In this document: positions 44,622 through 62,307 of the stretch, piece after piece | How the letters are laid out: each line of letters begins with the position of its first letter | Position numbering within the stretch: position 1 is the first letter of the stretch | Made by a program: the position numbers and the translations under genes | The notes under the pieces: model-generated | What the model was told of the DNA's origin: nothing | What the model saw: only the letters and a program-made list of their open reading frames with translations | Databases searched by the model: none | DNA from: Chryseobacterium mulctrae | GTDB taxonomy: Bacteria > Bacteroidota > Bacteroidia > Flavobacteriales > Weeksellaceae | Assembly (NCBI RefSeq): GCF_006175945.1 | Contig: NZ_VAJL01000001.1 | Location: 4,225,001-4,289,000, forward strand | Reading direction: 5' to 3' | DNA: 64,000 nt

Positions 44622-45596
44622 TTATTTTGAAAAGCTAAATTTTATTTTTTCCCAGAAAGTCCCTTCGTAATCCAAATTGTAACCAACAATATTGTGATAG
44701 AGCCACTTTGCAATGACTTCTGCCGATTCCAGATTCAAAAGTGTTATTTTTTCAATTCCGGCCTGATTCTGTACATTTCCTATTGTAAAATAGGTTTTGC
44801 TGAGGTTGTAAGTGTCAATTCGATTATTGGTCATACTCAATCTTTCGCTGATGAAATTTTCAAGATGCTGCTCGTTATCTACGCCTGTATTTCCAGATTT
44901 ATCCCATTTAGAAATCACAAGAAGCACATTTACATTTTTCAGATTCTTTCCCTTTTTTTCCAGATAATCTAAAAATTCTACAATTTTAGAATCTTCATTG
45001 TGCGCTTTGTCATAGCTTGTTACAATCAGAAAGTTCAGCGGAATGTCTGAATTTAAGTACGCTTCAATGTCTGCGTGATATCTTCCGCCTCTTGAAATTT
45101 CGTTATGATTTTCTCCAGCCGTTTCTAAAAACGAAATATTAATGGAAGGAACTTTTTTCGATTGATTATTCGGGTCAAATACAAAATCTAATCTTGTCAC
45201 CTGATCTCTCGTACTTCTATTGGGTAGAATGCCCTTTTTTATATTTTCAAAAAAATCAGCCAATAAAATTTGCGCTTCTCTGGAATTTGGACTTCCCAAT
45301 TTTGGTCTTAAAACTCCGGCATAAGAGTTCAAATAATACAAAATTGCCGATAAAATAACAGATTTTCCTGAAGCTGAAGTTCCGTAGAAGAAGACGAAAT
45401 TACTGTCTTTATTTTTCACAGTGGTTGTACTGCCGTTTGAAGTGGGAACAAAACCGTCATCTTCTATTTCAGGATGTGCGTAAATGTTTTCATTCGTTAT
45501 AATCTCGTTTTGAGGCTCTGTAAAATCATCGAATTTTTTAAAATCGTTGTCATAATCATAGTTATCGAAAGAAAAAGGTTTGTCATTATTCATCAT
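44622..45596 (-). CDS. P-loop GTPase, second gene of the operon
   Basis: A 324-aa soluble protein with Walker A GTSASGKS (72-79), a switch/Walker B-like FLETAGE (156-162) in the place of DxxG, and SKWD (229-232) in the place of N/TKxD, so most probably a TRAFAC-class GTPase. The first 65 residues are acidic and Asp/Asn-rich, probably unstructured. The LETAGE motif is unlike Era, Obg or Der. It starts 5 bp after the membrane protein gene. Alternative starts at 45596 and 45593 differ by one Met. Confidence 0.82.
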   Translation of the reverse strand: MMNNDKPFSFDNYDYDNDFKKFDDFTEPQNEIITNENIYAHPEIEDDGFVPTSNGSTTTVKNKDSNFVFFYGTSASGKSVILSAILYYLNSYAGVLRPKLGSPNSREAQILLADFFENIKKGILPNRSTRDQVTRLDFVFDPNNQSKKVPSINISFLETAGENHNEISRGGRYHADIEAYLNSDIPLNFLIVTSYDKAHNEDSKIVEFLDYLEKKGKNLKNVNVLLVISKWDKSGNTGVDNEQHLENFISERLSMTNNRIDTYNLSKTYFTIGNVQNQAGIEKITLLNLESAEVIAKWLYHNIVGYNLDYEGTFWEKIKFSFSK

Positions 45597-45601
45597 GGTA
45601 A

Positions 45602-46624
45602 TTATTTATTTGGGATTAATGTTCTGCCTTTTTTTCTGTTTCCTAAAACGCTGTTATTGGTTCTATTATCCGGACTTGTCACCAATAAAATGATAATTAC
45701 AATCACAAAATCTAATAAAATACATCCTGCCAAAACAACAAATTGATACATTCCGAAGTTTTTAATCGCATGTTCAAAAGCATAACCAATTTTTCCAACA
45801 TCTTGTGTTTTAGAAAGTAAAGGTTCGAATTTGAATTTTTCTTCTCCCAAAACATTGCTGCCTCGGTTTCCAAGCTTGTTATAATCGGTTAAGGCATTGT
45901 CTATAAGGGCTTGTGCCAAAATATCTTTATCTTTTTTAGGCAACAACAAAAACTCCTGTATTCTTTTATTCCATTTCAGAACAGAATTATTAATGTCTGA
46001 TTTTAAATTTCTTTCATCAGGCGACAAATCCATCACCATATTATCGATTTGGCTTCCCATTCTTTGTGCTAAATCTTCATAATCATTTCCAATCGGAGTT
46101 AAAAGATCTACTTTTTGCCCCGTCATTTTTTCAATATCTCTGATTAATGACTGCGCTCTTGAGCCGATTCCCTGATTTGCAGGATCAATAATTTGAGCCA
46201 TTAATTGTTTTTTCTTAATCTCAATATTTCTTGTGGTTTCTTTCGGGTATTTATAATTTAATTTTGCTTCAATATTATTTTCCAGCGTATTAAAATCTTC
46301 ATTAATCGTTTTTAATTCGTTGGTGTAGATGTCGGTACGCATAAATCTTGTGTATAATGCGTTGAAATTGGCGATAAAGCAAAAGGATGCAATGAAGATG
46401 TAAATTCCCACCAAGCTTCCGGTAGATTTACCTTCAAGTTTTGCAGCACGAAGCATCCAGCAAAGGAATAATAATAGCAAAGAAAGCACGAGTGCTATTA
46501 CAAATGATGCGTTGCCGAAGATCTGCTCAAGCCCGACCCAGGTTTGATAAAAGCTCACGCTGATTAATAATATTGCGAGCACTCCTAAAAATAGATCTGA
46601 TGCTCCTAAAGAATTTTTACTCAT
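45602..46624 (-). CDS. Four-helix membrane protein with large soluble domain, first gene of the operon
   Basis: A 340-aa protein with three N-terminal transmembrane helices (about 10-30, 38-58 and 69-88), a soluble helical region of about 190 residues (NELKTINEDFNTLENNIEAKLNYKYP..., with MTGQKVDLLTPIGNDYEDLAQRMGSQID) and a fourth helix near the end (about 291-315). I do not recognise the family. The soluble part would lie on one side of the membrane and could interact with the GTPase or with the third protein. The operon starts here. Confidence 0.72.
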   Translation of the reverse strand: MSKNSLGASDLFLGVLAILLISVSFYQTWVGLEQIFGNASFVIALVLSLLLLFLCWMLRAAKLEGKSTGSLVGIYIFIASFCFIANFNALYTRFMRTDIYTNELKTINEDFNTLENNIEAKLNYKYPKETTRNIEIKKKQLMAQIIDPANQGIGSRAQSLIRDIEKMTGQKVDLLTPIGNDYEDLAQRMGSQIDNMVMDLSPDERNLKSDINNSVLKWNKRIQEFLLLPKKDKDILAQALIDNALTDYNKLGNRGSNVLGEEKFKFEPLLSKTQDVGKIGYAFEHAIKNFGMYQFVVLAGCILLDFVIVIIILLVTSPDNRTNNSVLGNRKKGRTLIPNK

Positions 46625-47984: not shown

Positions 47985-48827
47985 TTATTTAAAGATTTCA
48001 AATTGATTTCCATCAAAACTTGCAAAAACCATTGTAGGATAAGAGTCTTGATGATAAATATTTCCGTTTTTATCAATGGCGATAGCTCCTGCAAAGCCAT
48101 CGATAGTCTTTAGCTCAGCAAAAGTTTTGTCAAAAGCGTCTTTTAAGTTCATTCCATCTGTCACTCTGGTTACAATTTTGGCAGAAGTTGCATTGCTTAC
48201 AATATCTTCACCAACTCCGGTGCAGCTTACAGCACAAAATTCATTGGCGTAATTTCCAGCTACCGTTGCAGAGTCTGAAATTCTTCCCGGAATTTCAAAA
48301 CCTTTACCTCCGGTAGAAGTGGCAACAGCTAATTTTCCGTTTTTATCGATCGCAACACAACCAACAGTTCCTTTTCCCCCGTTTTTTAGTTTCGCTTCAT
48401 ATTCTTTTCTTCTTTGAGGAATTTCTGTTGAGAAATTTTCAAATCCGTTATTGTTAGCATAAATTTTAGCTCCGTTTCCACCTAAAACCCGGTCATCTTC
48501 TTTCATCAGTTCCTTTGCTACAAAAATCGGATTTTTCACATCCTGAATATTGATAACACCGCTCATTTTCTGAGTTTCACCATTCATTAATGCTGCACTC
48601 ATTCTGATAACGCCGTCACTTTGAATTTGCGAACCGATTCCTGCATTAAACAATTCATCATCTTCCAAAAGAGAAACCGCATAAGCAACGGTATCGACTG
48701 CAGAATGGGTTTCTAAATATTGATATGCCTTTTCAGCGATGTTTTTTAAAGAATTTTGTTTAGCAACTTTCACTTCATGGCTCTGGTCACTTTCAGAGAA
48801 AAAACCTCCGTGGATAATGATTTTCAT
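47985..48827 (-). CDS. iaaA: Isoaspartyl peptidase / plant-type L-asparaginase
   Basis: A 280-aa Ntn hydrolase precursor. The autocleavage and catalytic site is GTVGCVAIDKNGKLAVATSTGG with Thr at about residue 154; ASTGG and RISDSATVAGNYA lie in the expected places. These enzymes hydrolyse beta-aspartyl (isoaspartyl) dipeptides and asparagine. Beside cyanophycinase and cyanophycin synthetase, its likely job is to cleave the beta-Asp-Arg dipeptides released from cyanophycin. A terminator separates it from cyanophycinase. Confidence 0.92.
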   Translation of the reverse strand: MKIIIHGGFFSESDQSHEVKVAKQNSLKNIAEKAYQYLETHSAVDTVAYAVSLLEDDELFNAGIGSQIQSDGVIRMSAALMNGETQKMSGVINIQDVKNPIFVAKELMKEDDRVLGGNGAKIYANNNGFENFSTEIPQRRKEYEAKLKNGGKGTVGCVAIDKNGKLAVATSTGGKGFEIPGRISDSATVAGNYANEFCAVSCTGVGEDIVSNATSAKIVTRVTDGMNLKDAFDKTFAELKTIDGFAGAIAIDKNGNIYHQDSYPTMVFASFDGNQFEIFK

Positions 48828-48852
48828 ATTGATTATTTGATTTTAAATATAT

Positions 48853-48880
48853 AAAAAAAAGTGAAGAAATCTTCACTTTA
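48853..48880 (-). terminator. Intrinsic terminator of cyanophycinase
   Basis: On the minus strand aaagtgaaga / tcttcacttt is followed by a T-run, directly after the cyanophycinase stop. It separates cyanophycinase from the isoaspartyl peptidase gene. Confidence 0.8.
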
Positions 48881-48888
48881 ATGTATTG

Positions 48889-49773
48889 TTACGTTTGAGG
48901 TATCGGGTTAAACTGAGAGTTTTCTATCGTCAGTTTTCTTGTCGTCAAATCATAGTGATCGTTCATCGACATCACGTGAACGGTAAGATTATCTATTGAA
49001 ATAGGTTCACCTAAATTGATATTGGTAAGATTGGTGTCTTTAATGAATCTTCCATCAACAATAATTACTAAACCAGATCCTACAGCGGTCATGGTATCAT
49101 TATGAATGAAAAGTCCGGTGTCTTCACCTAAACCGATTCCTAAAGTTCTAGGATTGTTTACCACAGCTTGGAAAAGTCTTCCGATTCTTCCTCTTTGTAC
49201 GAAATGCGTATCAACAATTACGTTATCGATTAAACCTAAACCTTGAGTTGTTTTAATTTCACCCTTCAACAAAGCTTCAGAACTGCTTCCTTGGTAAATC
49301 ATATTCTCAGAAGCTGCTGCAGCTCCTGCAGAAGTTCCGGAGTAGATAAAATCCTGCTCCATATATTTCAGCAAAATAGTATCATGAAATCTTGTTCCAC
49401 CCAAAATAGAAGTCAGTCTTAACTGATCACCACCCGTAAACATTACAACATCGGCAGCATTTGCTCTTGCAACAATAGCATCCGAATTAGCTTCTTCACG
49501 ATTGTGAATATCAAGAATATTGACATTTTTGGCTCCTAAAAATTCAAAAGCTTTTTTATATTCAGCACCTACTATTTGAGGGATCTGCGAAGCCGTAGTA
49601 ATGACTTCGATAATTGAGTTTTCTTTATTCTTAGATTCAGTAATGATTTTTCTTAAGATTCCTCTCTCAAAAAAGTTAAGATTTTTTTCGACATTCTGAT
49701 CGTAATCGGTCTCAGAAAAACTGCCTTTATTAACAGCCCCACCGATAATAATTAATTTTCCAACAGGTTTCAT
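48889..49773 (-). CDS. cphB: Cyanophycinase
   Basis: A 294-aa S51-family serine peptidase that in cyanobacteria and other bacteria degrades cyanophycin to beta-Asp-Arg dipeptides. It has the N-terminal GKLIIIGGAV, the oxyanion region MFTGGDQLRLTSILGG and the nucleophile elbow YSGTSAGAAAAS with Ser near residue 148. Start is ATG at 49773; the TTG at 49782 overlaps a promoter-like TAAATTTG (49787-49780, minus strand), which would leave almost no leader. It is divergent from cphA. Confidence 0.93.
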   Translation of the reverse strand: MKPVGKLIIIGGAVNKGSFSETDYDQNVEKNLNFFERGILRKIITESKNKENSIIEVITTASQIPQIVGAEYKKAFEFLGAKNVNILDIHNREEANSDAIVARANAADVVMFTGGDQLRLTSILGGTRFHDTILLKYMEQDFIYSGTSAGAAAASENMIYQGSSSEALLKGEIKTTQGLGLIDNVIVDTHFVQRGRIGRLFQAVVNNPRTLGIGLGEDTGLFIHNDTMTAVGSGLVIIVDGRFIKDTNLTNINLGEPISIDNLTVHVMSMNDHYDLTTRKLTIENSQFNPIPQT

Positions 49774-49918
49774 AGCTTGCAAATTTAAAAAATAATAAAT
49801 TGTTAATGAAATGTAAACCGATTTTTAACGTATTTAGTTTGATTTCTAATTGATTAAAGAAATTGTATTTTTTTAATAAATCTTTAATAACGCTATGGTT
49901 TTGTTTCATGTTTTACAT

Positions 49919-49926
49919 TATCTTTG
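49919..49926 (+). promoter_or_regulatory. Probable -7 element of the cphA promoter
   Basis: TATCTTTG matches TAnnTTTG and lies 46 bp before the cphA ATG. A TTTTG at 49899-49903 is only 15 bp upstream, shorter than usual spacing. Confidence 0.4.
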
Positions 49927-49971
49927 ATTTAGAAAGATGTTTTTATTAATATAATAAGGTATAACTAAAGT

Positions 49972-52599
49972 ATGAAAATTGAGAAGATACAGGCTTTGCG
50001 TGGTCCAAATATTTGGAGTATAAGAAGAAAGAAGCTGATACAGATGCGTTTGGATCTGGAGGAAATGGAAGATTTTCCTACAAATAAAATCGAAGGTTTT
50101 CGTGAAAGAATAGAACATCTTATGCCTTCGCTCATTAGTCACCGTTGTTCTGAAGGAACGAGAGGAGGTTTTTTTCATAGAATAGAAACTGGTACCTGGA
50201 TGGGACATGTCATTGAGCATATCGCTTTAGAAATTCAAACTTTAGCGGGTATGGAAACAGGATTTGGAAGAACGCGCGAGACAAAATCTCCAGGAGTTTA
50301 CAACGTCGTGTTTGATTATATCGAAGAAAATGCAGGAATCTATGCAGCCGAACAGGCGGTAGAAATTGCTTTAGCTTTAATTGAAAATAAAGAATACGAT
50401 ATCAATGCCTGTATTCAAAAGTTAAAAGAAATCAGAGAGCGTGTAAGATTGGGACCTTCAACAGGAAGTATTGTTGAGGAAGCAGTTTCAAGAAAAATTC
50501 CGTGGATAAGATTGGGAAGCAACTCGCTGGTTCAGTTAGGTTACGGAGTTAATCAACAAAGATTCCAGGCGACAATTACCGGAAATACAAGCTCGATTGC
50601 TGTAGATATTGCATGCAATAAAGAGCTGACGAAAAGAATGCTTCATGATGCTGCAATTCCTGTTCCGATGGGAGATTTAATTGTGGATGAGGAAGAACTA
50701 CAAAGCGTTATCAAAAAAATTGGTTATCCTATCGTTATTAAACCTTTGGACGGAAATCACGGAAAAGGTTCTTCAATCAATGTTAATGATTGGGTTTCTT
50801 CTGTGACAGGTTTAGAATACGCTCAGAAATATTCAAAAAAAGTAATTGTTGAAAAATATATTACGGGATACGATTTCAGAGTTTTGGTAATCAATAATAA
50901 AATGGTTGCAGCAGCAAGAAGGGTTCCCGCTCATGTTGTTGGTGACGGTGAATCTAATCTTGAGCAATTAATTGAAAAAGAAAACAAAGATCCGAGAAGA
51001 GGATATGGTCACGAAAATGTTTTGACCGAAATCACAGTTGATAAAGACACTTTAGAATTACTTGAAAAACTCCAATATACTTTAGAAACAGTTCCTCAAA
51101 AAGGAGAAATAGTTTATCTAAAATCTACAGCTAATCTTTCTACAGGTGGTACTTCTATTGATGTTACCGATATGGTGCATCCGGAAAATATCACAATGGC
51201 TGAAAGAATTTCAAAAATCATCGGTTTAGATGTCTGCGGAATTGATATTATGGCAGAAAATCTTACACAGCCTTTGAAAGAAAGCGGCGGAGCAATCATT
51301 GAAGTAAATGCAGCTCCTGGTTTCAGAATGCATTTGGCTCCAAGTGAAGGTCTTCCGAGAAACGTTGCAGCTCCGGTTGTAGATATGTTGTATCCGCAAG
51401 GAAAACCTTTTACCATTCCGATTATTGCAGTTACAGGAACTAATGGAAAAACCACGACGACAAGATTAATTTCACATATCGTAAAAAGTAACGGTTATAG
51501 AGTAGGTTTCACCACATCAGACGGAATTTACATTCAGAATACGATGTTGACGAAAGGTGATACAACAGGTCCTATTTCAGCCGAATTTATTCTAAAAGAT
51601 CCAACTGTAGAATTTGCAGTTTTGGAAACCGCACGTGGCGGAATTCTTCGTTCCGGTTTAGGTTTCGGACAGTGTGACATCGGGGTTTTAACCAATATTA
51701 AAGAAGATCATTTAGGAATGAATGATATTCACAACCTGAAAGATTTAACCAAAGTAAAAAGAGTAGTACTCGACAGTGTAAAGAAAAGCGGATGGAGCGT
51801 TTTGAATGCTGAAGATGAATATTCTATGAGAATCATCAACGATTTGCCGAGTAATGTCGCTATTTTTAGTTTAGATGAAAATAATGAATACATCAAAAAA
51901 TTTGCTAAAGAAGGACGCACAACCTGTGTTTATGAAGAAGGCTATGTAACCATTAAAAAAGGCGATTGGAAAATAAGAATCGGAAAAGTAAAAGATTTCC
52001 CGATTACGATGGAAGGAAAGGCAAAATTCATGATAGATAATGTTTTGGCGGCGAGTTTGGCTTGTTATCTTTATGGTTTTGGGATTGAGGATATTTCAAA
52101 CTCACTTCGTACATTTATTCCAAGTGCACAGTTGACTCCGGGAAGACTGAATGTATTTAAATTTAAAAACTTTAAAGTTTTGATAGATTTTGCACACAAT
52201 CCTGCAGGTTATGAAGCGATTGAAGATTATCTTAAAAATGTAGAATCTACCAAGAAAATCGGAATTATTTCCGGTGTGGGAGACAGAAGAGATGAAGACA
52301 TCAGACTGTGTGGAAAAATTGCCGGAAGAATGTTTGATCATATTATCATCAGAAACGAAAAACATCTTCGAGGAAGAACAGAAGAAGAAATCAACGGTTT
52401 GATTATCGACGGAATGCAATCTTCGGGAAGAGATGTGAGCTACGAAACGATTCCTAAAGAAATTGATGCGCTGAAACACGCAATGGGAATGGCGGAAGAA
52501 GGAACTTTTATTACAGCTCTAAGTGATGTAATTTCTAATGCAATTGACCTTGTTCAGGATTATCAGGCGAGGGAATTGCTTGAAGACGATAAATTTTAA
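49972..52599 (+). CDS. cphA: Cyanophycin synthetase
   Basis: CphA builds cyanophycin, an aspartate backbone with arginine side chains, from Asp, Arg and ATP. The 875-aa protein has the N-terminal CphA domain, an ATP-grasp domain (about 215-480: LTKRMLHDAAIPVPMGD, KPLDGNHGKGSSI, EVNAAPGFRMHLAPSEG) and a Mur-ligase-like domain with P-loop GTNGKTTTTRL (about 488-498) and FAHNPAGYEAI. Full length. It is divergent from cyanophycinase and very probably stores nitrogen with it. Confidence 0.96.
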   Translation: MKIEKIQALRGPNIWSIRRKKLIQMRLDLEEMEDFPTNKIEGFRERIEHLMPSLISHRCSEGTRGGFFHRIETGTWMGHVIEHIALEIQTLAGMETGFGRTRETKSPGVYNVVFDYIEENAGIYAAEQAVEIALALIENKEYDINACIQKLKEIRERVRLGPSTGSIVEEAVSRKIPWIRLGSNSLVQLGYGVNQQRFQATITGNTSSIAVDIACNKELTKRMLHDAAIPVPMGDLIVDEEELQSVIKKIGYPIVIKPLDGNHGKGSSINVNDWVSSVTGLEYAQKYSKKVIVEKYITGYDFRVLVINNKMVAAARRVPAHVVGDGESNLEQLIEKENKDPRRGYGHENVLTEITVDKDTLELLEKLQYTLETVPQKGEIVYLKSTANLSTGGTSIDVTDMVHPENITMAERISKIIGLDVCGIDIMAENLTQPLKESGGAIIEVNAAPGFRMHLAPSEGLPRNVAAPVVDMLYPQGKPFTIPIIAVTGTNGKTTTTRLISHIVKSNGYRVGFTTSDGIYIQNTMLTKGDTTGPISAEFILKDPTVEFAVLETARGGILRSGLGFGQCDIGVLTNIKEDHLGMNDIHNLKDLTKVKRVVLDSVKKSGWSVLNAEDEYSMRIINDLPSNVAIFSLDENNEYIKKFAKEGRTTCVYEEGYVTIKKGDWKIRIGKVKDFPITMEGKAKFMIDNVLAASLACYLYGFGIEDISNSLRTFIPSAQLTPGRLNVFKFKNFKVLIDFAHNPAGYEAIEDYLKNVESTKKIGIISGVGDRRDEDIRLCGKIAGRMFDHIIIRNEKHLRGRTEEEINGLIIDGMQSSGRDVSYETIPKEIDALKHAMGMAEEGTFITALSDVISNAIDLVQDYQARELLEDDKF

Positions 52600-52602
52600 A
52601 AT

Positions 52603-52634
52603 AAAAAAAGGAGTAAAGTTAATTTACTCCTTTT
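52603..52634. terminator. Bidirectional terminator between converging genes
   Basis: A long stem of ggagtaaa / tttactcc with A- and T-runs on both sides lies between cphA and the minus-strand gene. The loop contains the stop codon of the minus gene (52619-52621). Confidence 0.9.
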
Positions 52635-53101
52635 TTTGTTTCCAGCTGCTCAGAATTAGCGTAAATCATACCTACAGTGAGGTTTTTGTAATTCTTTAAA
52701 ATCTGTTGATTAGATTTATTTTTTAAACTATCTCTATAAAATGCAATTCTTTTTTCCCCGGAAAGAAAAAGCTTATTAGTTTTAGCATCTCGTTCTTTAA
52801 TAAAAAGCGTTAACCTTGCGGGTTGTATTCCTTTTTGCTGAAGCTGATAATCATCTTTTCGATTATTAAATCTAAAAGTAATGAAACTTGTCTCTTCAGA
52901 CCAGCCACCTCCAACATAAGCTATCTCAAAATTTACTTTAAGGTCTCTTAAAACGTCTTTTACTTTTTTATTGAGGTAAAATTGTTCATTTTCTTTAAAT
53001 TTTCCGATTTCCTGTTTAGAATAAACTTTTTGTTGAGCATTCAGCTTAAAAGTAAAAACTAAAATAAACGGCAAAATGATTTTTAATACATATTTATTCA
53101 T
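52619..53101 (-). CDS. Exported hypothetical protein
   Basis: A 160-aa protein with a signal peptide (MNKYVLKIILPFILVFTFKLNAQ). The mature part contains VLRDLKVNFEIAYVGGGWSEETSFITFRF. No family known to me. It lies 9 bp after the ATP-grasp gene and is probably co-transcribed with it; whether it belongs to that pathway is unclear. Confidence 0.65.
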   Translation of the reverse strand: MNKYVLKIILPFILVFTFKLNAQQKVYSKQEIGKFKENEQFYLNKKVKDVLRDLKVNFEIAYVGGGWSEETSFITFRFNNRKDDYQLQQKGIQPARLTLFIKERDAKTNKLFLSGEKRIAFYRDSLKNKSNQQILKNYKNLTVGMIYANSEQLETKKGVN

Positions 53102-53109: not shown

Positions 53110-54294
53110 CTATTCTTCTCCAAAAAACGCATGAGAACTGCCAATCCAGATTGCATCTTTTTTGTTGAAATCTACATTTACCATTGCAGCTTTTGTCATT
53201 CTTGAAAGATTTTGAAGTAAAATTGGTCTTTCTTCATTTTCTTTCCAGATATAAAGTAAACGGATTTCGGCTCTTGAAAAATCTCCGTTGATATCTTCAA
53301 AAATTGGTTCGTAGTTTACTTTTCGCTGCAAGATATAATTTTTTTTATCTAAAATAGCATCAGTAATCTCTTTTGTGGGATTTAGATTTACACCGCTACC
53401 TGCAAAAGAAAACAAAGGTTTTAAAACAAAATTTTCAAGGCTTTCATTTTCAGGAAACTCGTGCAGGAAATAGCTTTTCGGAACAAATTCATGTTTTAGC
53501 AAAGGCAGAAGATATTTAGAAATTTTAAAAAACCAATTCGGATGAGTAATCCATTCCACATCTACCTCTTCACGGAAATTAAATTCAGTTTTAAGGTCTG
53601 GAATTTTATCAAGCTCATCAAAAATGACGCGGTTATAAATTCTTTTGATTCTGATCAGTTCACCATTACGCTCATAAAATAATTGATTTCCCTGCTTTTT
53701 TACTTTAGTTAGACAAACAGTTTTTATTCCTAAAAGTTTTTCAGTTAAAGCAAAATCAATAGCCGTTTTCTGTTTTTCAGGATAAATTTCAAGCAAAACA
53801 ACATTTTCAGGATTTTCTTTACCAACAATCAATTCATATAAATGCTTCTGATAGTCTTCATCCGAAATATTATTTTTCAATTGATTTAAGAATGGATAAA
53901 CCTCACAAAAAGTATCTTCATAAACATTCTGAAACGCATACAACGAAGGAAAAGCTTGTAATTCTATCAGTTGAGGTTCTATTTTTCCGTTTTCACTTCT
54001 GCAAATCCCAAAATCTATGGTGAAAAAATGAGGTTGCTTTGTATCATTGGGAACTTTACAGTTTTCAGGAATCGAGTTTTCTAAAGTTCCTTCAGGGAAA
54101 TTTTTAATCTGATCAATAATACTTTCACTTGCTGAAACTAATTTTTCTTTGAATTCTTTGGTTAAAAAAATAGGACTTTCAGACAATCTGAATGTAGGTT
54201 GTATGCCGCTTTTTTCTTCTAAGATTGATTTTATCTGATCATACTTTTCGCGGGTGAATTCTTCGTTAAACTGTTTTCTGTATTTTTGGATCAT
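53110..54294 (-). CDS. ATP-grasp-like protein 1 of the amidoligase cluster
   Basis: A 394-aa cytoplasmic protein with an ATP-grasp-type C-terminal half: FVLKPLFSFAGSGVNLNPTKE (about 285-305, nucleotide-binding Lys and flexible loop), DKKNYILQRKV, and AEIRLLYIWKENEERPILLQNLSRMTKAA. Such enzymes join a carboxylate to an amine at the expense of ATP. The N-terminal half (about 1-200) includes DFGICRSENGKIEPQLIELQAFPSLY and is unlike D-Ala ligases. Substrate unknown. A terminator-like hairpin separates it from the upstream amidotransferase gene. Confidence 0.75.
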   Translation of the reverse strand: MIQKYRKQFNEEFTREKYDQIKSILEEKSGIQPTFRLSESPIFLTKEFKEKLVSASESIIDQIKNFPEGTLENSIPENCKVPNDTKQPHFFTIDFGICRSENGKIEPQLIELQAFPSLYAFQNVYEDTFCEVYPFLNQLKNNISDEDYQKHLYELIVGKENPENVVLLEIYPEKQKTAIDFALTEKLLGIKTVCLTKVKKQGNQLFYERNGELIRIKRIYNRVIFDELDKIPDLKTEFNFREEVDVEWITHPNWFFKISKYLLPLLKHEFVPKSYFLHEFPENESLENFVLKPLFSFAGSGVNLNPTKEITDAILDKKNYILQRKVNYEPIFEDINGDFSRAEIRLLYIWKENEERPILLQNLSRMTKAAMVNVDFNKKDAIWIGSSHAFFGEE

Positions 54295-54315
54295 AATTTT
54301 TTTCTTTTGTGATTT

Positions 54316-54343
54316 AAAAAATCGAGCAATAATGCTCGATTTT
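54316..54343 (-). terminator. Intergenic terminator or attenuator within the amidoligase cluster
   Basis: On the minus strand atcgagca / tgctcgat with a 4-nt loop is extended by A/T pairs and followed by a run of six T. It lies between the amidotransferase and the first ATP-grasp gene, so the last two genes may be expressed at a lower or separately set level. Confidence 0.75.
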
Positions 54344-54367
54344 AATTGTTTTTATTTGAATTTTTTA

Positions 54368-55201
54368 TCAGGCTGTTGCCGTATTTTGTTTCAAAATATT
54401 TTTCTTAGCATCGCTTAAAAAACGAGGTAGAATCTGAGATTGTGTAAGAACGATTTTGTCTTCGTCATTAATTCTGTCTACGGTTTCCAGATATTTTTCC
54501 ATACCGTAATTTTCAATCATAGCTTCTTTATTTTTCTCGTCTTTCAGATTTTCAATCATTCCGTCAGGATTAGCTTCAGGATGAAACTGTGTTCCGAAAA
54601 TTTCATCAGAAAAACGAACTGCCATAATTGCCCGCTCCAAATCGATATGAGGACGAGATTTTTCAATCGCTACCATTTTCATATCTAATTCTTCAAAACG
54701 CTCTACATTAGGTTCAATAAACTGATATGCTCTGGAATCTACAGCATAAAAAGGATCGGGTAGGTTTTTGAATAAAAATTCAGCTTCACCTTCTTCCGTT
54801 TTATGAATAGGCTGCACTCCAAAAGAATAAGATTTTCTTTTACAGATATTTCCTAAATCCCAATGAATACTTGCCAATTGGAAAGAATGACAAATCAGAA
54901 AAAGATATTTTTTTGCATCATTATGCTTGTTATATTCATAAACTGAATCTAAAAAATCTGCAAATTTCTGCTCCCATTCAAAGCCTTCACGGTGCGGATT
55001 TCCCGGTCCGCCGGAAGAAATAAATATATCAAAATCTTCAATGTTTGGAATTTCATTTTTATGTCTTACATCAAAACCTGTAATACTTATATTTTCTTCC
55101 GATTGCTTCTGGAAATTCTCAGAGATTTCTTTTATATTTTTAAATCCCTGATTCGCCTGATTGTTGTTCATATCCAGCAAAGCAATTCTTACATCTTTCA
55201 T
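54368..55201 (-). CDS. Class I glutamine amidotransferase-like protein
   Basis: A 277-aa protein (ATG 55201; the GTG at 55207 is less likely). It has a Rossmann-like N-terminus and SSGGPGNPHREGF, the nucleophile region FLICHSFQ with Cys near residue 104, and GTQFHPEANPDGM with the His-Glu pair near 207-209, the GATase1 triad. The elbow is unusual (CHSFQ rather than CxGxQ). In the cluster it could supply ammonia to a ligase or hydrolyse a glutamyl bond. It lies 33 bp after the YbdK-type ligase. Confidence 0.85.
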   Translation of the reverse strand: MKDVRIALLDMNNNQANQGFKNIKEISENFQKQSEENISITGFDVRHKNEIPNIEDFDIFISSGGPGNPHREGFEWEQKFADFLDSVYEYNKHNDAKKYLFLICHSFQLASIHWDLGNICKRKSYSFGVQPIHKTEEGEAEFLFKNLPDPFYAVDSRAYQFIEPNVERFEELDMKMVAIEKSRPHIDLERAIMAVRFSDEIFGTQFHPEANPDGMIENLKDEKNKEAMIENYGMEKYLETVDRINDEDKIVLTQSQILPRFLSDAKKNILKQNTATA

Positions 55202-55233
55202 AACCACATAATTTCTGCAAAGTTATGAAATTA

Positions 55234-56352
55234 TTATAAAGCAGTTTGGTTGTGCGTGATGCCGTATTCTGTCTCAGATATCATATAATCAACGACTTTC
55301 TTTAAGTCGCCTGTTTCTTTATAGACCGCTAATTGTCGGTCTGCGCCGGTTCCGTTTTCCAAAATTTTCCAGGCATATTCTACTTCTTTTCTGCATCCTA
55401 AATCATCTACAACATCATCGATAAACTCTAAAAGTTCTTTTAAAAGATCAGGATAAGGTACCGATTCTTCTTTACCAAAATCAATCAGTTTAGAATGAAC
55501 TCCATCTCTGGAAGCACGCCATTTATTTTCGTTAAGCAATAATCTTCTGTAACTTCTGAAGCTTAAATTCTGCTGGTGAAGCTTGTAAATTTTAGCCACT
55601 AAACTCTGCATAATTGCAGCCAGACAAACTGTTTCTTCAATTCTTAAAGGCATATCACAAATTCTGAACTCAATAGTTGGATAAAACGGATGAACACGCA
55701 GATCCCACCATATTTTTTTGGCATTGTCAATCGTTCCGGTTTTTACCAAAAGATCAACATAACTGTCAAATTCCGCCAACGAATTAAAGTAACTCGGAAT
55801 TCCGGTTCTTGGGAATTTGACGAAAATTTCTTGTCTGTAAGATTTAAAGCCTGTGCTTCTTCCAATCCAAAAAGGGGAGTTTACGGAAAGTGCATAAACA
55901 TGCGGAAGGAAATAACGCATTACATTCTGTATTCTCACGCCTTCTTCACGGTTGGGAATTCCAATGTGAACGTGTAATCCGAAAATAAGATTTCCACGGG
56001 CAACATCGCCCATATCGTCTACAATTTTGTTGTAACGTTCACCGTTTGTAATCGTGTTGTGTTCCCAGTTTGAAAAAGGATGAGTTCCACCTCCGGAAAC
56101 ACGAAGTCCCTGTTCGTGCGCTGTATTGATTAAATGTCTTCTAAGATTGGTGAGTTCAGCCTGAGCTTCCTGAATATTCTGGCAAATTCCGGTTTCCATT
56201 TCAATCATTGATTCGTGCATTTCGTGTTTTAAATTTTCACTTAAAACAGCTTTTCCACCTTCAATAATTTTTGAAACATGAGAAATTAAATCGCGGCTTT
56301 CAACATCGATAATCTGATATTCTTCTTCGATTCCTATTGTAAATTGATGCAT
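55234..56352 (-). CDS. Carboxylate-amine ligase, YbdK (GCS2) family
   Basis: A 372-aa member of the GCS2 glutamate-cysteine ligase superfamily, COG2170 type: N-terminal FTIGIEEEYQIIDVESRDLI, catalytic-fold segments GLHVHIGIPNREEGVRIQN, LSVNSPFWIGRSTGFKSYR and FYPTIEFRICDMPLRIEET. These enzymes make amide bonds between a carboxylate (often Glu) and an amine; YbdK itself has weak gamma-GCL activity. Here, without GshB nearby, a role in a dedicated metabolite is more likely than glutathione synthesis. Confidence 0.9.
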   Translation of the reverse strand: MHQFTIGIEEEYQIIDVESRDLISHVSKIIEGGKAVLSENLKHEMHESMIEMETGICQNIQEAQAELTNLRRHLINTAHEQGLRVSGGGTHPFSNWEHNTITNGERYNKIVDDMGDVARGNLIFGLHVHIGIPNREEGVRIQNVMRYFLPHVYALSVNSPFWIGRSTGFKSYRQEIFVKFPRTGIPSYFNSLAEFDSYVDLLVKTGTIDNAKKIWWDLRVHPFYPTIEFRICDMPLRIEETVCLAAIMQSLVAKIYKLHQQNLSFRSYRRLLLNENKWRASRDGVHSKLIDFGKEESVPYPDLLKELLEFIDDVVDDLGCRKEVEYAWKILENGTGADRQLAVYKETGDLKKVVDYMISETEYGITHNQTAL

Positions 56353-56378
56353 TTTTTTTTCAGTGTTTTTTTAGGTTT

Positions 56379-57332
56379 TTATTTTACAGAGTCTTTTACA
56401 AAAGTTCCCCACGAAATATTAGGTTTTCCGGGAACGTATTCTTTAGCTTTTTCAATGGCTAATTTTGCAGAATGTTCTACAATCCAGGCGAAATTTTCTT
56501 CTCCTACAGAATTTTTGTCTGCATCCGGAGCTGGGTTACAGAAATCAATAGCATAAGGAATTCCGTCTCTTACCGCAAATTCTACGGTGTTGAAATCATA
56601 TCCTAAAGCCTGATTCATTTTTATGGTATAATCATGAATTGTTTTCAATAATTTTTTCAAATCTTCACCTTCTGTTTGATGAGTAGTTTCATATCTCAAA
56701 TGAGGTGCATTTCTTGGCTCATATGGCATAATGTGAACGTATTTTTGTCCTAAACAATACACCCTGTAATAATCCTGGAAAACAATTTCTTCCTGCACCA
56801 TCATCACTAATTGTTCTGTTTCGCTCAGTTTATCCCAAAGATCCTGCGGATTTTCTACTCGGTAAACGCTTTTCCAGCCACCACCATCATGAGGTTTCAT
56901 ATAAGCCGGAAATCCTACGTAATCAAAAATATATTCCCAGTCGTGTGGAAACTTTAGGTTTCTGAATGAAGTTTCTGAAGTATCTGTAGGTCTTTCGTGT
57001 GAAGGAAGCAAAACGGTTTTAGGTAAAGGAATTCCAAGTTTAGTCATTAAAGCATTGTTGAAGAATTTTTCATCAGCACTCCACCAAAAAGGATTGTTGA
57101 TTACATAGGTTCCGTTTAAAGCTGCATTTTTAAGATAAGCTCTGTAGAAAGGAACATCCTGAGAAATTCTGTCAATAATCACGGCATACCCATAATCTGC
57201 ACCTTGCTCCAGTTTATCTATATTCACTGCTTCAGCGATTACTTCTCCGCCTCCAAGTTCGTTTACTTTATCAATAAATGCCCACGGAAATGTATCTTCC
57301 ATCCCGAATAAAATTCCTACTTTTTTTGCCAT
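56379..57332 (-). CDS. ATP-grasp protein 2 of the amidoligase cluster
   Basis: A 317-aa ATP-grasp enzyme: N-terminal VGILFGMEDTFPWAFIDKVNE, WSADEKFFNNALMTKLGIPLPKTVLLPS, the nucleotide-binding YMKPHDGGGWKSVYRV, MMVQEEIVFQDYYRV and the metal site FNTVEFAVRDGIPYAIDFCNPAPDAD. It is closest in style to D-Ala-D-Ala ligase/RimK-like enzymes, with an unknown carboxylate and amine pair. It lies 26 bp from the GCS2 gene. Confidence 0.87.
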   Translation of the reverse strand: MAKKVGILFGMEDTFPWAFIDKVNELGGGEVIAEAVNIDKLEQGADYGYAVIIDRISQDVPFYRAYLKNAALNGTYVINNPFWWSADEKFFNNALMTKLGIPLPKTVLLPSHERPTDTSETSFRNLKFPHDWEYIFDYVGFPAYMKPHDGGGWKSVYRVENPQDLWDKLSETEQLVMMVQEEIVFQDYYRVYCLGQKYVHIMPYEPRNAPHLRYETTHQTEGEDLKKLLKTIHDYTIKMNQALGYDFNTVEFAVRDGIPYAIDFCNPAPDADKNSVGEENFAWIVEHSAKLAIEKAKEYVPGKPNISWGTFVKDSVK

Positions 57333-57378
57333 AATTTGTTTTTTAATGATTTAATATTAATATTTGAGTTGTTTTAAT

Positions 57379-58089
57379 TTAAAAAAATGCCCCGATGTAC
57401 GTTGGAAAAGTCATTCTCCAAAGTGGCCAGTCGTGATTGATCCATTTTTTTTCGTCATACCAGAAATCAATTCCTTTTGAGGCTAAAATCCCTGCCATTT
57501 CCACATTTTTATCTTTGCATATATCTTCATCAGAAGTGCTTAAAACAATGTGCATATGCTTATATTTCCAGGCTTCATCGTTTTTTACAAATTCTCTCGG
57601 ACAGTTAAAATAAACCAGTTCACCATCATATCCATCCATGAAATTTCTAATGCTGAATGCTCCCGAAAGACAGAATAAATGCGAAATCACATCCGGAAAA
57701 CGAAACGCAAAATTAGCTGCATGATAACCTCCGAAACTCGCTCCTGCAATCGCAACACGATGGATCTGGTGAAGTTTTTGGATATAAGGAACAAACTCCT
57801 GAATCAGAAACTGTACATATTTTTCATAATTTTTTATTCTTTGTTGCGGCGAAATTTTTTCGTCATAAAAAGTCCACGCATCAATCGTTTGAACGTTGTA
57901 TAATTTTACTTTTCCCTGCTCAATAAAATAATTGATGCTGCTGTTCAGGTGAAAATCATGATTTTGAGTATATAAACCTTGTGAGGTCGGAAACATAATA
58001 ATCGGATAACCGTAATGTCCCGTAACTTCCACTTTAAGGCTTGTTCCTAAGATATTGGAATAATAATCTGTATGTTCTATATGTGGCAT
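57379..58089 (-). CDS. Putative esterase (alpha/beta hydrolase) of the cluster
   Basis: A 236-aa alpha/beta hydrolase of the esterase D/enterochelin-esterase type. It has the nucleophile elbow GASFGG (Ser at about 118), STSDED (acid) and the His in WINHDWPLW near the C-terminus, giving a plausible Ser-Asp-His triad. It has no signal peptide, so it acts in the cytoplasm, perhaps releasing or trimming the cluster product. It is followed after 46 bp by ATP-grasp 2. Confidence 0.85.
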   Translation of the reverse strand: MPHIEHTDYYSNILGTSLKVEVTGHYGYPIIMFPTSQGLYTQNHDFHLNSSINYFIEQGKVKLYNVQTIDAWTFYDEKISPQQRIKNYEKYVQFLIQEFVPYIQKLHQIHRVAIAGASFGGYHAANFAFRFPDVISHLFCLSGAFSIRNFMDGYDGELVYFNCPREFVKNDEAWKYKHMHIVLSTSDEDICKDKNVEMAGILASKGIDFWYDEKKWINHDWPLWRMTFPTYIGAFF

Positions 58090-58122
58090 ATTTTATTGTT
58101 TGAGCTTTTATTTGTGTTAATA

Positions 58123-58401
58123 TTATATGAACTTAATGAATTCAATTCCACCCAGTTGATCATCTTGAAGAATATCCAGAACAATTGTTTTATATTTTGG
58201 ATGTTCTAAAATAATATTTTCTTTAAACTGCCATTTTGATCCAGGTTTATTTGCATCTGTAGAATCAACAAATTTGTAATATGCTTTACTTTCCCATTTT
58301 CCAAATTTGATGGTGTTTAAATTAGTTTTTAAATTAGATTCTTTTGGTAAATTAAATGTTATAAAATCTATAATTTCTTGAATGTCAATTTTTCTATTCA
58401 T
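58123..58401 (-). CDS. Small hypothetical protein inside the cluster
   Basis: A 92-aa protein (MNRKIDIQEIIDFITFNLP...) of unknown family, without signal or membrane segment. It begins 5 bp after the third ATP-grasp gene, ends 33 bp before the esterase gene and is thus an integral part of the cluster. It contains KTIVLDILQDDQLGGIEFIKFI. Whether it is structural or regulatory is not evident. Confidence 0.65.
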   Translation of the reverse strand: MNRKIDIQEIIDFITFNLPKESNLKTNLNTIKFGKWESKAYYKFVDSTDANKPGSKWQFKENIILEHPKYKTIVLDILQDDQLGGIEFIKFI

Positions 58402-58406
58402 TAAAA

Positions 58407-59618
58407 TTAAGAACTCGGTTTATCTTTCGGGGGAAGTACATTCAACATCTCCGCATGAATCTTTTCAGCTGCAGAATCAAGCCTGTCCTGAACAATATCA
58501 GAATCTTTCGACTTATAAACAATTCCTACATGATAGTCGATTGGAAGAAATTTCACAACTTCTTCACATTCAAAATCTTTATAATTGGGAGCTAAATCTT
58601 TAATCAACGCTACGATCAATCCCGAATAATATCCAGTTGGTTTTGAAACTTCGTAATGATTTCCTCTTAGCAATGCATCTTCAATCTTTGCCCATTCACG
58701 CCAAATATTAATATTGCTAGAAGCTTCTACCAAATCTGGAATATGCGCACCTCCAACTCTTGAGGAAGTTTCCAGGAAATACCATTTTTTGTCTTCTTTA
58801 CCACGAATAAATTCTGTGTGAGTAGCACCATTAAGCAAGCCAAAGTTGTTTAAAACTTTTGCATTAGCTTCTTCCAAAGCTTTAAACTCTTCAGAATATC
58901 TTCCTAAAGTTTTGGTTCTGAAAACCCCGCCCTCATGAGAAACCTGCATCGGTGGAGCAAGGTATTTTGAAGCAGAAGTAAAAACAATCTCTTTATTGAA
59001 TGTTAAACTGTCTACATGGTAAACATCGCCTGGTTTAAAACTTTCGAGAAGAAATAAATGTCTCTCTTCACCCAGTTTTTCCAAAGCATTCCAAAGCTCT
59101 TCCTGAGTTTTTAATTTTTTAATTCCTGATGCTGAAGCTTCAGAACGTGGCTTCAAAACCCATGGCGGAGAAACTTTTTCGGTGAAATCTTTTACTTCCT
59201 GATCATTAAACACAGCAGTAAATTCAGGAACATTGATTCCGGAGTCTTTTGCTTTTTGACGCATGGCGAGTTTATCTCTGAAATAACGGTGCGTTGTCTG
59301 TCCCATTCCGGGAATACGGAATGTCTCACGAATCAGTGCAGCTTTTTCAACATCATAATCATCCAAAGCGATTACAGCATCTACTTTCCTGGTTTTCATC
59401 AAGTGAGAAAATCCCTGAATAAGATGATCAAGATTCCAGACCGAAGGCTTTATCTCCGGCATATAGAAAACTTCATCGACAGCGTGCCATGGCCAGTTTT
59501 TTTCTTTTAAATTTTCCGATGTTACGAGGATGATTTTATTACCGAGTTTTTTCATCTCGTCCATAAAATCGTAACCTTTATAATAGCACGAAATGCATAC
59601 GATGGTTTTCTCCTTCAT
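58407..59618 (-). CDS. ATP-grasp protein 3 (CarB-like)
   Basis: A 403-aa enzyme with a biotin-carboxylase/CarB-like ATP-grasp: N-terminal TIVCISCYYKGYDFMDEM, RYFRDKLAMRQKAKDSGINVPEF, WVLKPRSEASASGIKKL (nucleotide loop), GATHTEFIRGKEDKKWYFLETSSRVGGAHI (metal-binding residues). Its partners in this family include amino-acid ligases such as L-amino-acid alpha-ligases. Substrate unknown. It lies between the M17 peptidase and the small hypothetical gene. Confidence 0.87.
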   Translation of the reverse strand: MKEKTIVCISCYYKGYDFMDEMKKLGNKIILVTSENLKEKNWPWHAVDEVFYMPEIKPSVWNLDHLIQGFSHLMKTRKVDAVIALDDYDVEKAALIRETFRIPGMGQTTHRYFRDKLAMRQKAKDSGINVPEFTAVFNDQEVKDFTEKVSPPWVLKPRSEASASGIKKLKTQEELWNALEKLGEERHLFLLESFKPGDVYHVDSLTFNKEIVFTSASKYLAPPMQVSHEGGVFRTKTLGRYSEEFKALEEANAKVLNNFGLLNGATHTEFIRGKEDKKWYFLETSSRVGGAHIPDLVEASSNINIWREWAKIEDALLRGNHYEVSKPTGYYSGLIVALIKDLAPNYKDFECEEVVKFLPIDYHVGIVYKSKDSDIVQDRLDSAAEKIHAEMLNVLPPKDKPSS

Positions 59619-59758
59619 ATAATGATTTTTAATTTTTATTAAATTATAAAAAATAAAAGCTTATGATTGTTGATTATTTAATATTAAAAATTGATAATCG
59701 GTGTGCTTTTGAAAATTACTAATCAAGTATAAGAAGAAAAATTTTAAAAAACTAATTT

Positions 59759-61174
59759 TTAATGATAATTTTCGATTAAATCGGCCAGTAATTGCACTCC
59801 AAAGCCGGTTGCTGCTTTTTCTTTTGCATATCCTACACTTCCAAATGCAACTCCTGCAATGTCGAGATGTGCCCAATTTGGATGGTTTCCGATGAATTGT
59901 TCCAAGAATTTTGCAGCAATAATACAATCTCCGAGAGGTTTCATTGAAATATTTTTAAAATCGGCAACATCAGATTTAAAATCATCCAACCAAACATCCC
60001 ATAAAGGAAGATTCCATAATCTCTGATTAGTCTTATCACCGGTTTTAATTAAAAGATTTTTCAAATCCTCATTGTTAGAAAACATCGCTCCACAAGTGTC
60101 TCCAAACATTCTTACCGAACTTCCTGTAAGGGTTGCAAGATCAATTAAAATATCCGTTTTGTAATTTTTTGAAAGATAAGATAAGCCATCTGCAAGAGTC
60201 ATTCTGCCTTCTGCATCGGTGTTTAAAACTTCAATTGTTTTTCCGTTGTAAGCCGTAATGACATCGCTTGGTAAGTAGGCATTTTCAGAAATTGCATTGT
60301 CAGTAATCGGTAAAATTGCTGTAATGTTAACGGGAAGTTTCATTTGCGATGCGTAAATTAGTGCTCCAATCACTGCGGTTGCACCTCCCATGTCAGATTT
60401 CATATAGTGCATATTGTCTGAAGCTTTCAGGGAAATTCCCCCCGTGTCAAATAAAACGCATTTTCCTACAAGCCCAAAAGTTTTGGCGTTTTTCTCCGTT
60501 GTTTTATATTCCAAAATAGTAAAAGCGGCATCATAAGCACTTCCCTGATTAACAGAAAGAAAGGCTCCAAGACCTAATTCGGCACATTTTTTTCTATTAA
60601 AAACGGTGTGCTTTAACTGATTTTTCTTGGCTAAATTCTTTAGATAAGTATTGAAGATCTCAGGCTTTTTTAGATTGGCTGGTTTATTAAGCCAATCCTG
60701 ACAAGCTACTTGTCCTTGACAGATCGCATCTATTCTTGAAGAAATAGTATCTAATTTTTTCTGGCTTAAATTCCCAAAATGAAGCTCGAAAGATTTATTC
60801 CAAAAAGGATGGGTTTTATCAAATGGGTAAGTGTAAGTTCCTAATAGTAATCCTTTTGTGAACTCTTCAAATTGTTTTTGAATAATGAATTCAGAAATTA
60901 ATAACGTAGGTACGGTTTGTATATTTTTTTTTTGAGTCTGAGAGAATTTTACTCCAATTTGCTGAAATTCAAAATTCTGTAAAGTTTCTTTTCCAAGACC
61001 TATATAATAAGTGATGGTTTTTTCACTGGTTTCTATAAAAACTTCATGTTTTTTTCCTGAAAAAAGAAGGGCAATATTTTTGTTGAATTTTTTAGAGTTT
61101 AGAGTCCAGGATTCTTCTGTGAATAATTGAAAGATCTGAGCATATTGTTTATTTTTTTTATTGAATAATTGCAT
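59759..61174 (-). CDS. pepA: M17 leucyl aminopeptidase
   Basis: A 471-aa cytosolic zinc aminopeptidase. The active-site signature VLNTDAEGRMTLADGLSYL (about 316-334), the metal-binding GISLKASDNMHYMKSDMGGA and a C-terminal KFLEQFIG region are clear. M17 enzymes release N-terminal residues and also cleave Cys-Gly. The gene lies 140 bp before ATP-grasp 3 and 2 bp after the esterase gene, so it may process or recycle the cluster product. Confidence 0.92.
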   Translation of the reverse strand: MQLFNKKNKQYAQIFQLFTEESWTLNSKKFNKNIALLFSGKKHEVFIETSEKTITYYIGLGKETLQNFEFQQIGVKFSQTQKKNIQTVPTLLISEFIIQKQFEEFTKGLLLGTYTYPFDKTHPFWNKSFELHFGNLSQKKLDTISSRIDAICQGQVACQDWLNKPANLKKPEIFNTYLKNLAKKNQLKHTVFNRKKCAELGLGAFLSVNQGSAYDAAFTILEYKTTEKNAKTFGLVGKCVLFDTGGISLKASDNMHYMKSDMGGATAVIGALIYASQMKLPVNITAILPITDNAISENAYLPSDVITAYNGKTIEVLNTDAEGRMTLADGLSYLSKNYKTDILIDLATLTGSSVRMFGDTCGAMFSNNEDLKNLLIKTGDKTNQRLWNLPLWDVWLDDFKSDVADFKNISMKPLGDCIIAAKFLEQFIGNHPNWAHLDIAGVAFGSVGYAKEKAATGFGVQLLADLIENYH

Positions 61175-61176
61175 TT

Positions 61177-62307
61177 TTAAATCGTTTTATTTTTAATATT
61201 TTCCTGTTTTGGTGTTACTTCAACAGGGTTTTCTGTATTATTATAGAAAAGCCATTCAATTGCTCTAGGAAATTCCTGTGACCAATAAAATTCGCTATGT
61301 TCTCCGTCGGGATTGATATTGGTTTTAAATTCAAAATCAAAAAGGTTTTTCTTTTCCCACCGTTGTAAATAGTTTTCAAAAACCTGAATTCTTTTTACCA
61401 TTTTAGCTCCTTCCTGTTCGCCTCCATAAAGATAGATTTTAGTCTTAAAAGGAACTCTGAAACTCATCATCGGAAAGTTATTGTTGGGTTCTATCCAAAG
61501 GGAAGGTGAAAAAATAAGCAGTTTAGAATAAACTTCAGGGTAAAGAAAACCACTGTAAAGACTGATGAGCGCTCCTAAAGAGCTTCCGCCAATCCCTGTG
61601 TTTTCGCGGTCTTTTTTTGTACGATAATGTTCATCAACAAAAGGTTTTAAAGTGTCAGTAACGAATCTGATGTATTTTTTCCCTTCAGATCCGTTGGCAA
61701 CGTTATCATTATCGAAAATATATTCTTTAATCCGGTCTTCGCTTCCGTGTTCTACTGCGATTACGATAACATCTCCACGACCGTATTCCGCAAGAATCGA
61801 TAGTTTTTTGTCGATCTCCCAGTTTCCGTAGGCGCTGCCTTCATTGAATAAATTTTGAGCATCCTGAAGATAAAGCACAGGATATTTTTTATCTGAAATA
61901 TAATAATCGTAGGGTAAAAGTGCCCAAACTTTACGGTAACGGTCAAGCTGCGGAATGTAAAATTCTTCAGAGATCACCTCAACAATAGGGAAGAACTCAT
62001 CTTTAAATGGTCCCCAGTTGAATCTCCATTTTTCCACAAAATCATTGGTTGTTCCAGATTTTTTGTTGATTTTTCTGTTTGGCGTAATGTTTCCGTACTG
62101 ATCCAGTTCTACATTTTCCCAACCGCCTTTTGTGAATTTATATTCTATGTCATCACCTAGCAATTGGTCTTCAATGTCAATGCTGTAGATGTTTTCATCC
62201 AAAATTGTAAGTTGAAAATGGTAATCTTTAGGATTCCATTTATTAAAATTTCCGGTGATGAAAATAGGTCTGCTGTCTTTTTCTGCCGTATTGAGCGTAA
62301 ATTTCAT
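61177..62307 (-). CDS. Esterase with N-terminal CBM48-like domain
   Basis: A 376-aa protein. Residues 1-75 (RPIFITGNFNKWNPKDYHFQL...) resemble an early-set/CBM48 glycogen-binding domain. From about 110 on an esterase D domain follows, with YRKVWALLPYDYYIS, VLYLQDAQNLF and GIGGSSLGALISLY (nucleophile Ser243). The gene starts the minus-strand cluster and is divergent from glgB, the other CBM48-bearing enzyme, with 170 bp between them. A TAAATTTG element (62343-62336, minus strand) may be its promoter. Confidence 0.85.
   Translation of the reverse strand: MKFTLNTAEKDSRPIFITGNFNKWNPKDYHFQLTILDENIYSIDIEDQLLGDDIEYKFTKGGWENVELDQYGNITPNRKINKKSGTTNDFVEKWRFNWGPFKDEFFPIVEVISEEFYIPQLDRYRKVWALLPYDYYISDKKYPVLYLQDAQNLFNEGSAYGNWEIDKKLSILAEYGRGDVIVIAVEHGSEDRIKEYIFDNDNVANGSEGKKYIRFVTDTLKPFVDEHYRTKKDRENTGIGGSSLGALISLYSGFLYPEVYSKLLIFSPSLWIEPNNNFPMMSFRVPFKTKIYLYGGEQEGAKMVKRIQVFENYLQRWEKKNLFDFEFKTNINPDGEHSEFYWSQEFPRAIEWLFYNNTENPVEVTPKQENIKNKTI

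Follow-up and report, generated by a model that had tools for sequence, protein, structure and literature searches.

The locus considered here raises the question of what is made by a run of genes crowded with amide-bond-forming ligases. It lies in a stretch of 64,000 nucleotides from Chryseobacterium mulctrae (contig NZ_VAJL01000001.1, positions 4,225,001 to 4,289,000), called the window in the following, and is numbered G1 to G9 from the downstream end of a minus-strand run (62307 to 53110). A first, sequence-only reading had counted nine genes and taken them as one pathway, and all nine open reading frames (ORFs) are in place. They are organised as two modules, a core G5-G4-G3-G2-G1 and a second module G9-G8-G7, G6 and the adjacent cyanophycin genes being no part of the conserved system. 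The genes G1 to G5 and G7 to G9 very probably serve one shared small-molecule amide pathway. The earlier idea is thereby kept in part: gene order and co-occurrence speak for a shared pathway but not for a single unit, as G6 stands outside, G7-G8-G9 is separate and the core is split in several genomes.

The association of the genes was followed in 198 Bacteroidota genomes, where separate searches were taken as the same draw by draw size, genus count and genome labels; G1, G2 and G3 were searched by profile and G4, G7 and the control cphA by single protein, under thresholds of our own setting (E 1e-3 for G4, 1e-30 for G1, G2 and G3, 1e-50 for G7 and 1e-100 for cphA). G4 occurs in 72 genomes, the G3 subfamily in 62, G1 in 60, G2 in 50, G7 in 43 and cphA in 22. 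Within the 72 G4 genomes fall 58/60 of the occurrences of G1, 49/50 of G2, 58/62 of G3 and 43/43 of G7, with hypergeometric values from 7e-34 to 2e-24 that ignore shared ancestry, while the control cphA is distributed about as chance would have it (10/22 against 8.0 expected, hypergeometric 0.24). G1, G2 and G3 occur together without G4 in one genome (G209), possibly through an assembly gap, G1 and G3 alone in another (G199), and only a more distant G3 in G062 and G222. The phyletic patterns of four enzymes are nearly nested in that of a fifth, and the genes often form an operon, which indicates that these bacteria make a small molecule, one not named in the sources read. Because the set stays together in about one third of the phylum, this product is likely important to them.

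The gene order leads to the same grouping. In a first set of loci, the best 80 of at least 595 confirmed G4 relatives from named genomes (L032-L111), which were picked by G4 similarity so that near kin are favoured, G3 and G5 each lie within 8 kb of G4 in 78/80 loci and G1 and G2 each in 74/80, all on the same strand. A second set of 40 more diverse loci, 39 with G4, has G3 in 16, G1 and G2 in 15 each and G5 in 14 of the 39, at the same distance and again on one strand; core genes near G4 are always on its strand. The order G5-G4-G3-G2-G1 is found in many Flavobacteria and Cytophagales, groups to which we presume the loci to belong from their organism names. Thus, one part of the phylum has the core as a conserved operon and the rest has it dispersed, and in close relatives, where scattering would have spoken against the cluster, the core genes stand together.

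Departures from this order were also seen. Genome G245 has G4 and G3 on a different contig from G2 and G1; the core order without G3 occurs at two loci of Saprospiraceae type (L076 and L102), and L110 reads G4-G3-G2-G1-G7. Among more distant genomes, there are five loci (L144, L147, L156, L176, L177) at which G3 adjoins G1 with no G2 between them, G2 being encoded elsewhere in four of these genomes (G086, G171, G239, G125) and not found in the fifth (G059). At seven further loci (L158, L159, L160, L163-L166), one permuted ATP-grasp protein of about 451 residues, scoring below the cut-off of PF14403 in the one protein scanned, takes the position of G3 and G1 between G4 and G2; a G1 match was found in 0/7 of these genomes and G3 is missing in 6/7, the remaining one (G167) having a more distant G3 far away. 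A protein search with the G4 of one such locus brought up Rhodothermales names and a single one of candidate division KSB1, so that the G4 family extends beyond Bacteroidota. At two variant loci of one genus (L160, L163), the operon is also accompanied by G7 and, on the opposite strand, by an isoaspartyl peptidase-type gene.

Regarding the second module, in the first set G7 is near G4 in 38/80 loci, G8 in 36/80, and a G9-type esterase lies within 8 kb of G4 in 62/80, with 29 on the same strand and 33 on the opposite one. The order G9-G8-G7 is kept in L108 and L111, where it is convergent to the core, instead of upstream of it as here. G7 is no more than about 5 kb away from the core in L098, L100, L105, L108, L110, L111, L160, L163 and L180, and also in close relatives of the genome studied here; among the 43 G7 genomes its distance from G4 is at most 4 kb in 7 and at most 35 kb in 10, the other 33 having it elsewhere.

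Concerning the enzymes themselves, the GCS2/YbdK ligase of the earlier reading is well founded, as G3 exceeds the curated cut-offs of PF04107 (218.6 bits, cut-off 21), PRK13515 (535.8, cut-off 371) and TIGR02050 (305.3, cut-off 176.4). It is the sole GCS2 match in its genome, with 1tt4 and 1r8g (ybdK) as solved relatives. The three ATP-grasp proteins are also borne out, on different grounds: G7 by PF13535 (29.6 bits, cut-off 27), G4 by a weak TIGR00768 match together with conserved residues, and G1 by its predicted model and fold, neither G1 nor G4 having a Pfam match at E <= 0.001. The TIGR00768 (RimK) score of G4 (E 2e-9, 37.1 bits) is below the cut-off of 143.4, which places it as RimK/LysX-like and not within RimK proper. 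Its residues K146, E181, D263 and N266 are invariant in 19/19 aligned sequences and E251 nearly so, and we take these to be the ATP-grasp lysine and the metal-binding acidic and asparagine residues. The best solved relatives of G7 are L-amino acid ligases (4wd3, E 4.3e-18; 3vot, E 2.5e-8), a likeness that spans only about 250 residues. When each ligase was compared with profile families, none scored above the curated threshold of any family whose pathway is characterised, as the families passed carry only 'carboxylate-amine ligase' names in the case of G3 and only the general ATP-grasp domain in that of G7. In Maribacter, a RimK-type ATP-grasp protein, a possible G4, is reported to be induced (PMC11036162).

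The predicted model of G1 matches YgiC, YjfC, glutathionylspermidine synthetase and eukaryotic glutathione synthetase over its length by structure comparison, and is accordingly that of a full-length permuted ATP-grasp fold. G2 agrees with a class-I amidotransferase both in its PF00117 score (35.5 bits, cut-off 22.8) and in its Cys-His-Glu triad. The non-standard nucleophile elbow noticed in the sequence-only reading was recovered as ICHSxQ, compared with the canonical GxCxG, with Cys106, Ser108, Gln110, His209 and Glu211 invariant in 30/30 aligned members. Its model is near plant gamma-glutamyl peptidase 1 (Arabidopsis GGP1) and equally near plain amidotransferases and MetA: the Z score of GGP1, of 17% identity to G2, is tied with those of DnfC and MetA and 1.0 below that of TM1158. 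By hhalign the relation to MetA is rejected (5%) in spite of the nearness in fold. At two loci (L157, L181), a peptidase M29 protein is located between G3 and G1, in the place of G2, and the respective genomes (G110, G148) gave no G2 match at E <= 1e-30; because a peptidase fills this slot, these two loci suggest that G2 may also work as a hydrolase. G1 and G2 are far branches of the glutathione synthetase fold and of the amidotransferase/gamma-glutamyl peptidase fold, respectively.

The remaining enzymes are hydrolases, as had been proposed. Both esterases, G5 and G9, score over the PF00756 cut-off, and at least 95% of the 85 sequences aligned for G5 conserve its GxSxG serine (S118) and H219; G8 reaches 351.8 bits for PF00883, against a cut-off of 25. 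The part in turnover given to the esterases and the aminopeptidase is putative.

From the enzyme families, conserved catalytic residues, gene order and co-occurrence observed, we infer the substrates, the order of steps and the product. The chances are evenly balanced that the pathway builds a small, non-ribosomal pseudopeptide of gamma-glutamyl type in successive ATP-dependent ligations, followed by its trimming or recycling. G3 would join an amine to the side-chain carboxylate of glutamate or of a related acid, and G1 may couple the resulting carboxylate to a second amine, a step comparable to the addition of glycine by glutathione synthetase or of spermidine by GspS and YgiC. A further residue could be added, or the substrate primed, by G4, while G7 might supply a dipeptide building block. 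The gamma-glutamyl group, which would have been a protecting group or else a part of the product, would be removed by G2, and the esterases G5 and G9 together with the aminopeptidase G8 would finish or degrade the product. A gamma-glutamyl, glutathione-like logic is the most likely mechanism, held with slightly less than even confidence, because there are three to four amide ligases, a glutathione synthetase-fold enzyme beside a GCS2 ligase, and a gamma-glutamyl peptidase-like protein. A more speculative and rather doubtful extension is that a functional counterpart of glutathione or trypanothione, so far unrecognised, is made by roughly one third of Bacteroidota. It would be a gamma-glutamyl pseudopeptide, possibly conjugated to an amine such as a polyamine, which the GCS2, glutathione synthetase-fold, RimK/LysX-like and dipeptide ligases would assemble and the gamma-glutamyl peptidase would recycle. 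Should a glutathione-like compound be the product, ideas on redox or polyamine chemistry in Bacteroidota would have to be revised. The four-ligase set is small enough for reconstitution.

Several observations weigh against the proposed pseudopeptide pathway. The GCS2 step is not universal, since four genomes of one family (G092, G119, G213, G233) have G4, G1, G2 and G7 without a G3 of this subfamily and seven others (G070, G085, G089, G151, G186, G190, G238) have G4 and G2 with neither G3 nor G1; these genomes count against the glutathione-type logic unless another ligase takes that step. In 13 of the 39 diverse loci, G4 is without any partner within 8 kb, and at the 10 of these 13 where neighbours were inspected none could be assigned to this pathway. 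The most diverged G4 relatives, of 32 to 42% identity (G065, G142, G215), have no partner in their genomes, and these matches probably belong to another family. To these are added the lack of linkage between G7 and G4 in 33/43 genomes and the shared ancestry ignored by the hypergeometric values. G1 differs from YgiC, YjfC and Gss by its 10-15% identity, by SFAG in place of the YgiC motif SREG and by its PF03738 score (17.6 bits, below the cut-off of 29.3, with any match at E <= 0.1 in 17/37 relatives); moreover, its sequence alignment with YgiC covers only about 80 residues. As the Z score of GGP1 ties with those of plain amidotransferases and MetA, G2 could alternatively serve for ammonia supply or acyl transfer. 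Finally, no product, substrate or phenotype was found in this analysis. As a side observation on unlinked G4 genes, in L152 and L155 G4 stands directly before a histidine ammonia-lyase-like gene and after an LpxH-like phosphoesterase gene, both read by eye.

The same enzymes can be read differently. A GCS2 ligase, an amidotransferase-fold hydrolase, an aminopeptidase and esterases would also suit the salvage of amines or amino acids, where gamma-glutamylation marks an amine for catabolism and G2 then hydrolyses the adduct, as in the Puu pathway of E. coli. This explanation is unlikely, as a one-step activation would not call for as many as three to four ligases, no amine oxidase or aldehyde dehydrogenase recurs across families among the inspected neighbour clusters, and hhalign sets G2 apart from PuuD (probability 18%, against 93% for GuaA), so that a PuuD-like role for G2 was rejected.

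A further alternative is peptide tagging or carrier chemistry, where residues would be placed by G4 and G1 on a protein or a LysW-like carrier protein and taken off again by the hydrolases. A peptide tag, if true, would represent a new modification system. It is regarded as quite improbable: no recurring small carrier gene was seen among the ORFs called, which were of 90 residues or more, G6 is not conserved, G3 belongs to a family of small-molecule ligases, and the full-length matches of G1 are enzymes of glutathione type.

The pairing of a GCS2 ligase with a glutathione synthetase-fold ligase also recalls an ordinary, diverged glutathione or glutathionylspermidine pathway. The eukaryotic glutathione/homoglutathione synthetases with their GCS have this pairing in common with the locus, which differs in being a bacterial operon with two further ATP-grasp ligases, a gamma-glutamyl peptidase-like protein and esterases. 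An ordinary pathway of this kind is very unlikely, as neither G4 nor G1 carries a GshB Pfam domain (E <= 0.001), PF03738 stays below its cut-off in G1, and the additional ligases G4 and G7 are tied to the set. PMC11237479 describes neighbourhoods of GspS-related ligases with DUF350, DUF1190 and a link to AdoMet decarboxylase, partners absent among the ten proteins scanned here.

That the genes are an accessory of the adjoining cyanophycin system (cphA, cphB and isoaspartyl peptidase, 47985-52599) can hardly be credited and is largely refuted by the co-occurrence test, as G4 is present in 10/22 cphA genomes, about chance, and cphA in 9/71 other G4 genomes, in spite of the adjacency in Chryseobacterium and of a PF01112 gene within 10 kb of G4 in 5/69 searched genomes outside the genus, in three genera (G127; G170; G070, G089, G186), where the link to isoaspartyl peptidase is weak. 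The isoaspartyl peptidase-like, cyanophycinase-like and cyanophycin synthetase genes were named by eye, with cphA and iaaA supported by genome searches.

Regarding earlier descriptions, Iyer et al. 2009 reportedly predicted amidoligase neighbourhoods with ATP-grasp, GCS2 and peptidases, systems of the same class as the present one. In the literature covered by titles and abstract openings, which leaves Iyer et al. 2009 outside, no description of the gene set was recognised, nor was it in the passages available of PMC8939145, PMC4431377, PMC12506659, PMC12568646, PMC11237479, PMC2922099 and PMC11036162.

Table 1. Genes of the ligase cluster, all on the minus strand, with window coordinates and supporting matches
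Gene	Predicted product	Position	Strand	Support
G1	Permuted ATP-grasp ligase of the glutathione synthetase / glutathionylspermidine synthetase / YgiC fold	53110..54294	-	
G2	Stand-alone class-I glutamine amidotransferase-fold protein, intact Cys-His-Glu; putatively gamma-glutamyl peptidase-like	54368..55207	-	
G3	GCS2 / YbdK-family carboxylate-amine ligase	55234..56352	-	PF04107, PRK13515, TIGR02050
G4	RimK/LysX-like ATP-grasp ligase, most constant member	56379..57332	-	Weak TIGR00768 and conserved residues
G5	Alpha/beta-hydrolase, PF00756 esterase family	57379..58089	-	PF00756
G6	92-residue co-directional passenger outside the conserved system	58123..58401	-	Present in 4/80 loci
G7	ATP-grasp ligase resembling L-amino-acid (dipeptide) ligases	58407..59618	-	PF13535, 4wd3, 3vot
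G8	M17 leucyl aminopeptidase family	59759..61174	-	PF00883
G9	PF00756 esterase with an extra N-terminal region	61177..62307	-	PF00756

By ORF coordinates, the gaps from G9 to G1 are 2, 140, 5, 33, 46, 26, 26 and 73 bases, compatible with a single transcription unit. GTG is the listed start of G2, with an ATG two codons further in, and the best match of G1 among named relatives (99% identity) carries the label Chryseobacterium scophthalmum. Downstream of G1 comes a tenth co-directional ORF (52619-53101), which was matched (E <= 1e-5) only in its own genome and in L003 out of 111 loci, some of which are too short to show it. Concerning G6, the four loci found by tblastn among L032-L111 are L032, L039, L040 and L059, a patchy distribution in Chryseobacterium. 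With the PADLOC defence models, eight of the nine proteins gave no match at E <= 0.01; G6 alone weakly resembles the C-terminal end of the candidate PDC-S06 (E 8e-4), and with support limited to this partial match an anti-phage defence system was rejected.

The presence of the genes on plasmids was also searched. No plasmid relatives were found for G4 (E <= 1e-5) or G2 (E <= 1e-3); GCS2 relatives are on 72 plasmid records, each below 60% identity, and the two inspected have no other core gene annotated alongside. A G5-like esterase is on 15 plasmid records, five of which were inspected: no ATP-grasp is annotated near it in those of Thiodictyon and Rubrobacter, none was recognised by eye among the ORFs of the unannotated Rhizobium record, and in Peptoclostridium (L182, 4785-6750) and Pararhizobium (L184, 4825-6753) the gene immediately ahead of the esterase encodes an ATP-grasp protein with a distant likeness to G7. 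These ATP-grasp proteins have 24% and 23% identity to G7, respectively, and 39% to each other, and the arrangement is possibly a cross-phylum ligase-esterase pair.

At the Rfam gathering threshold, no riboswitch or other RNA match was obtained in six core loci or in the cluster part of the window. Elsewhere in the window, a Cobalamin riboswitch (29028-29211, minus strand, 96.4 bits) and a Flavo-1 small RNA (23438-23503, minus strand, 46.7 bits) were detected. On the opposite strand from 62478, a gene was read by eye as glycogen branching enzyme. In addition, three adjoining minus-strand genes at 43119-46624, encoding a coiled-coil-rich protein, a protein with a P-loop-like GTSASGKS motif and a membrane protein, look by eye like one unit.

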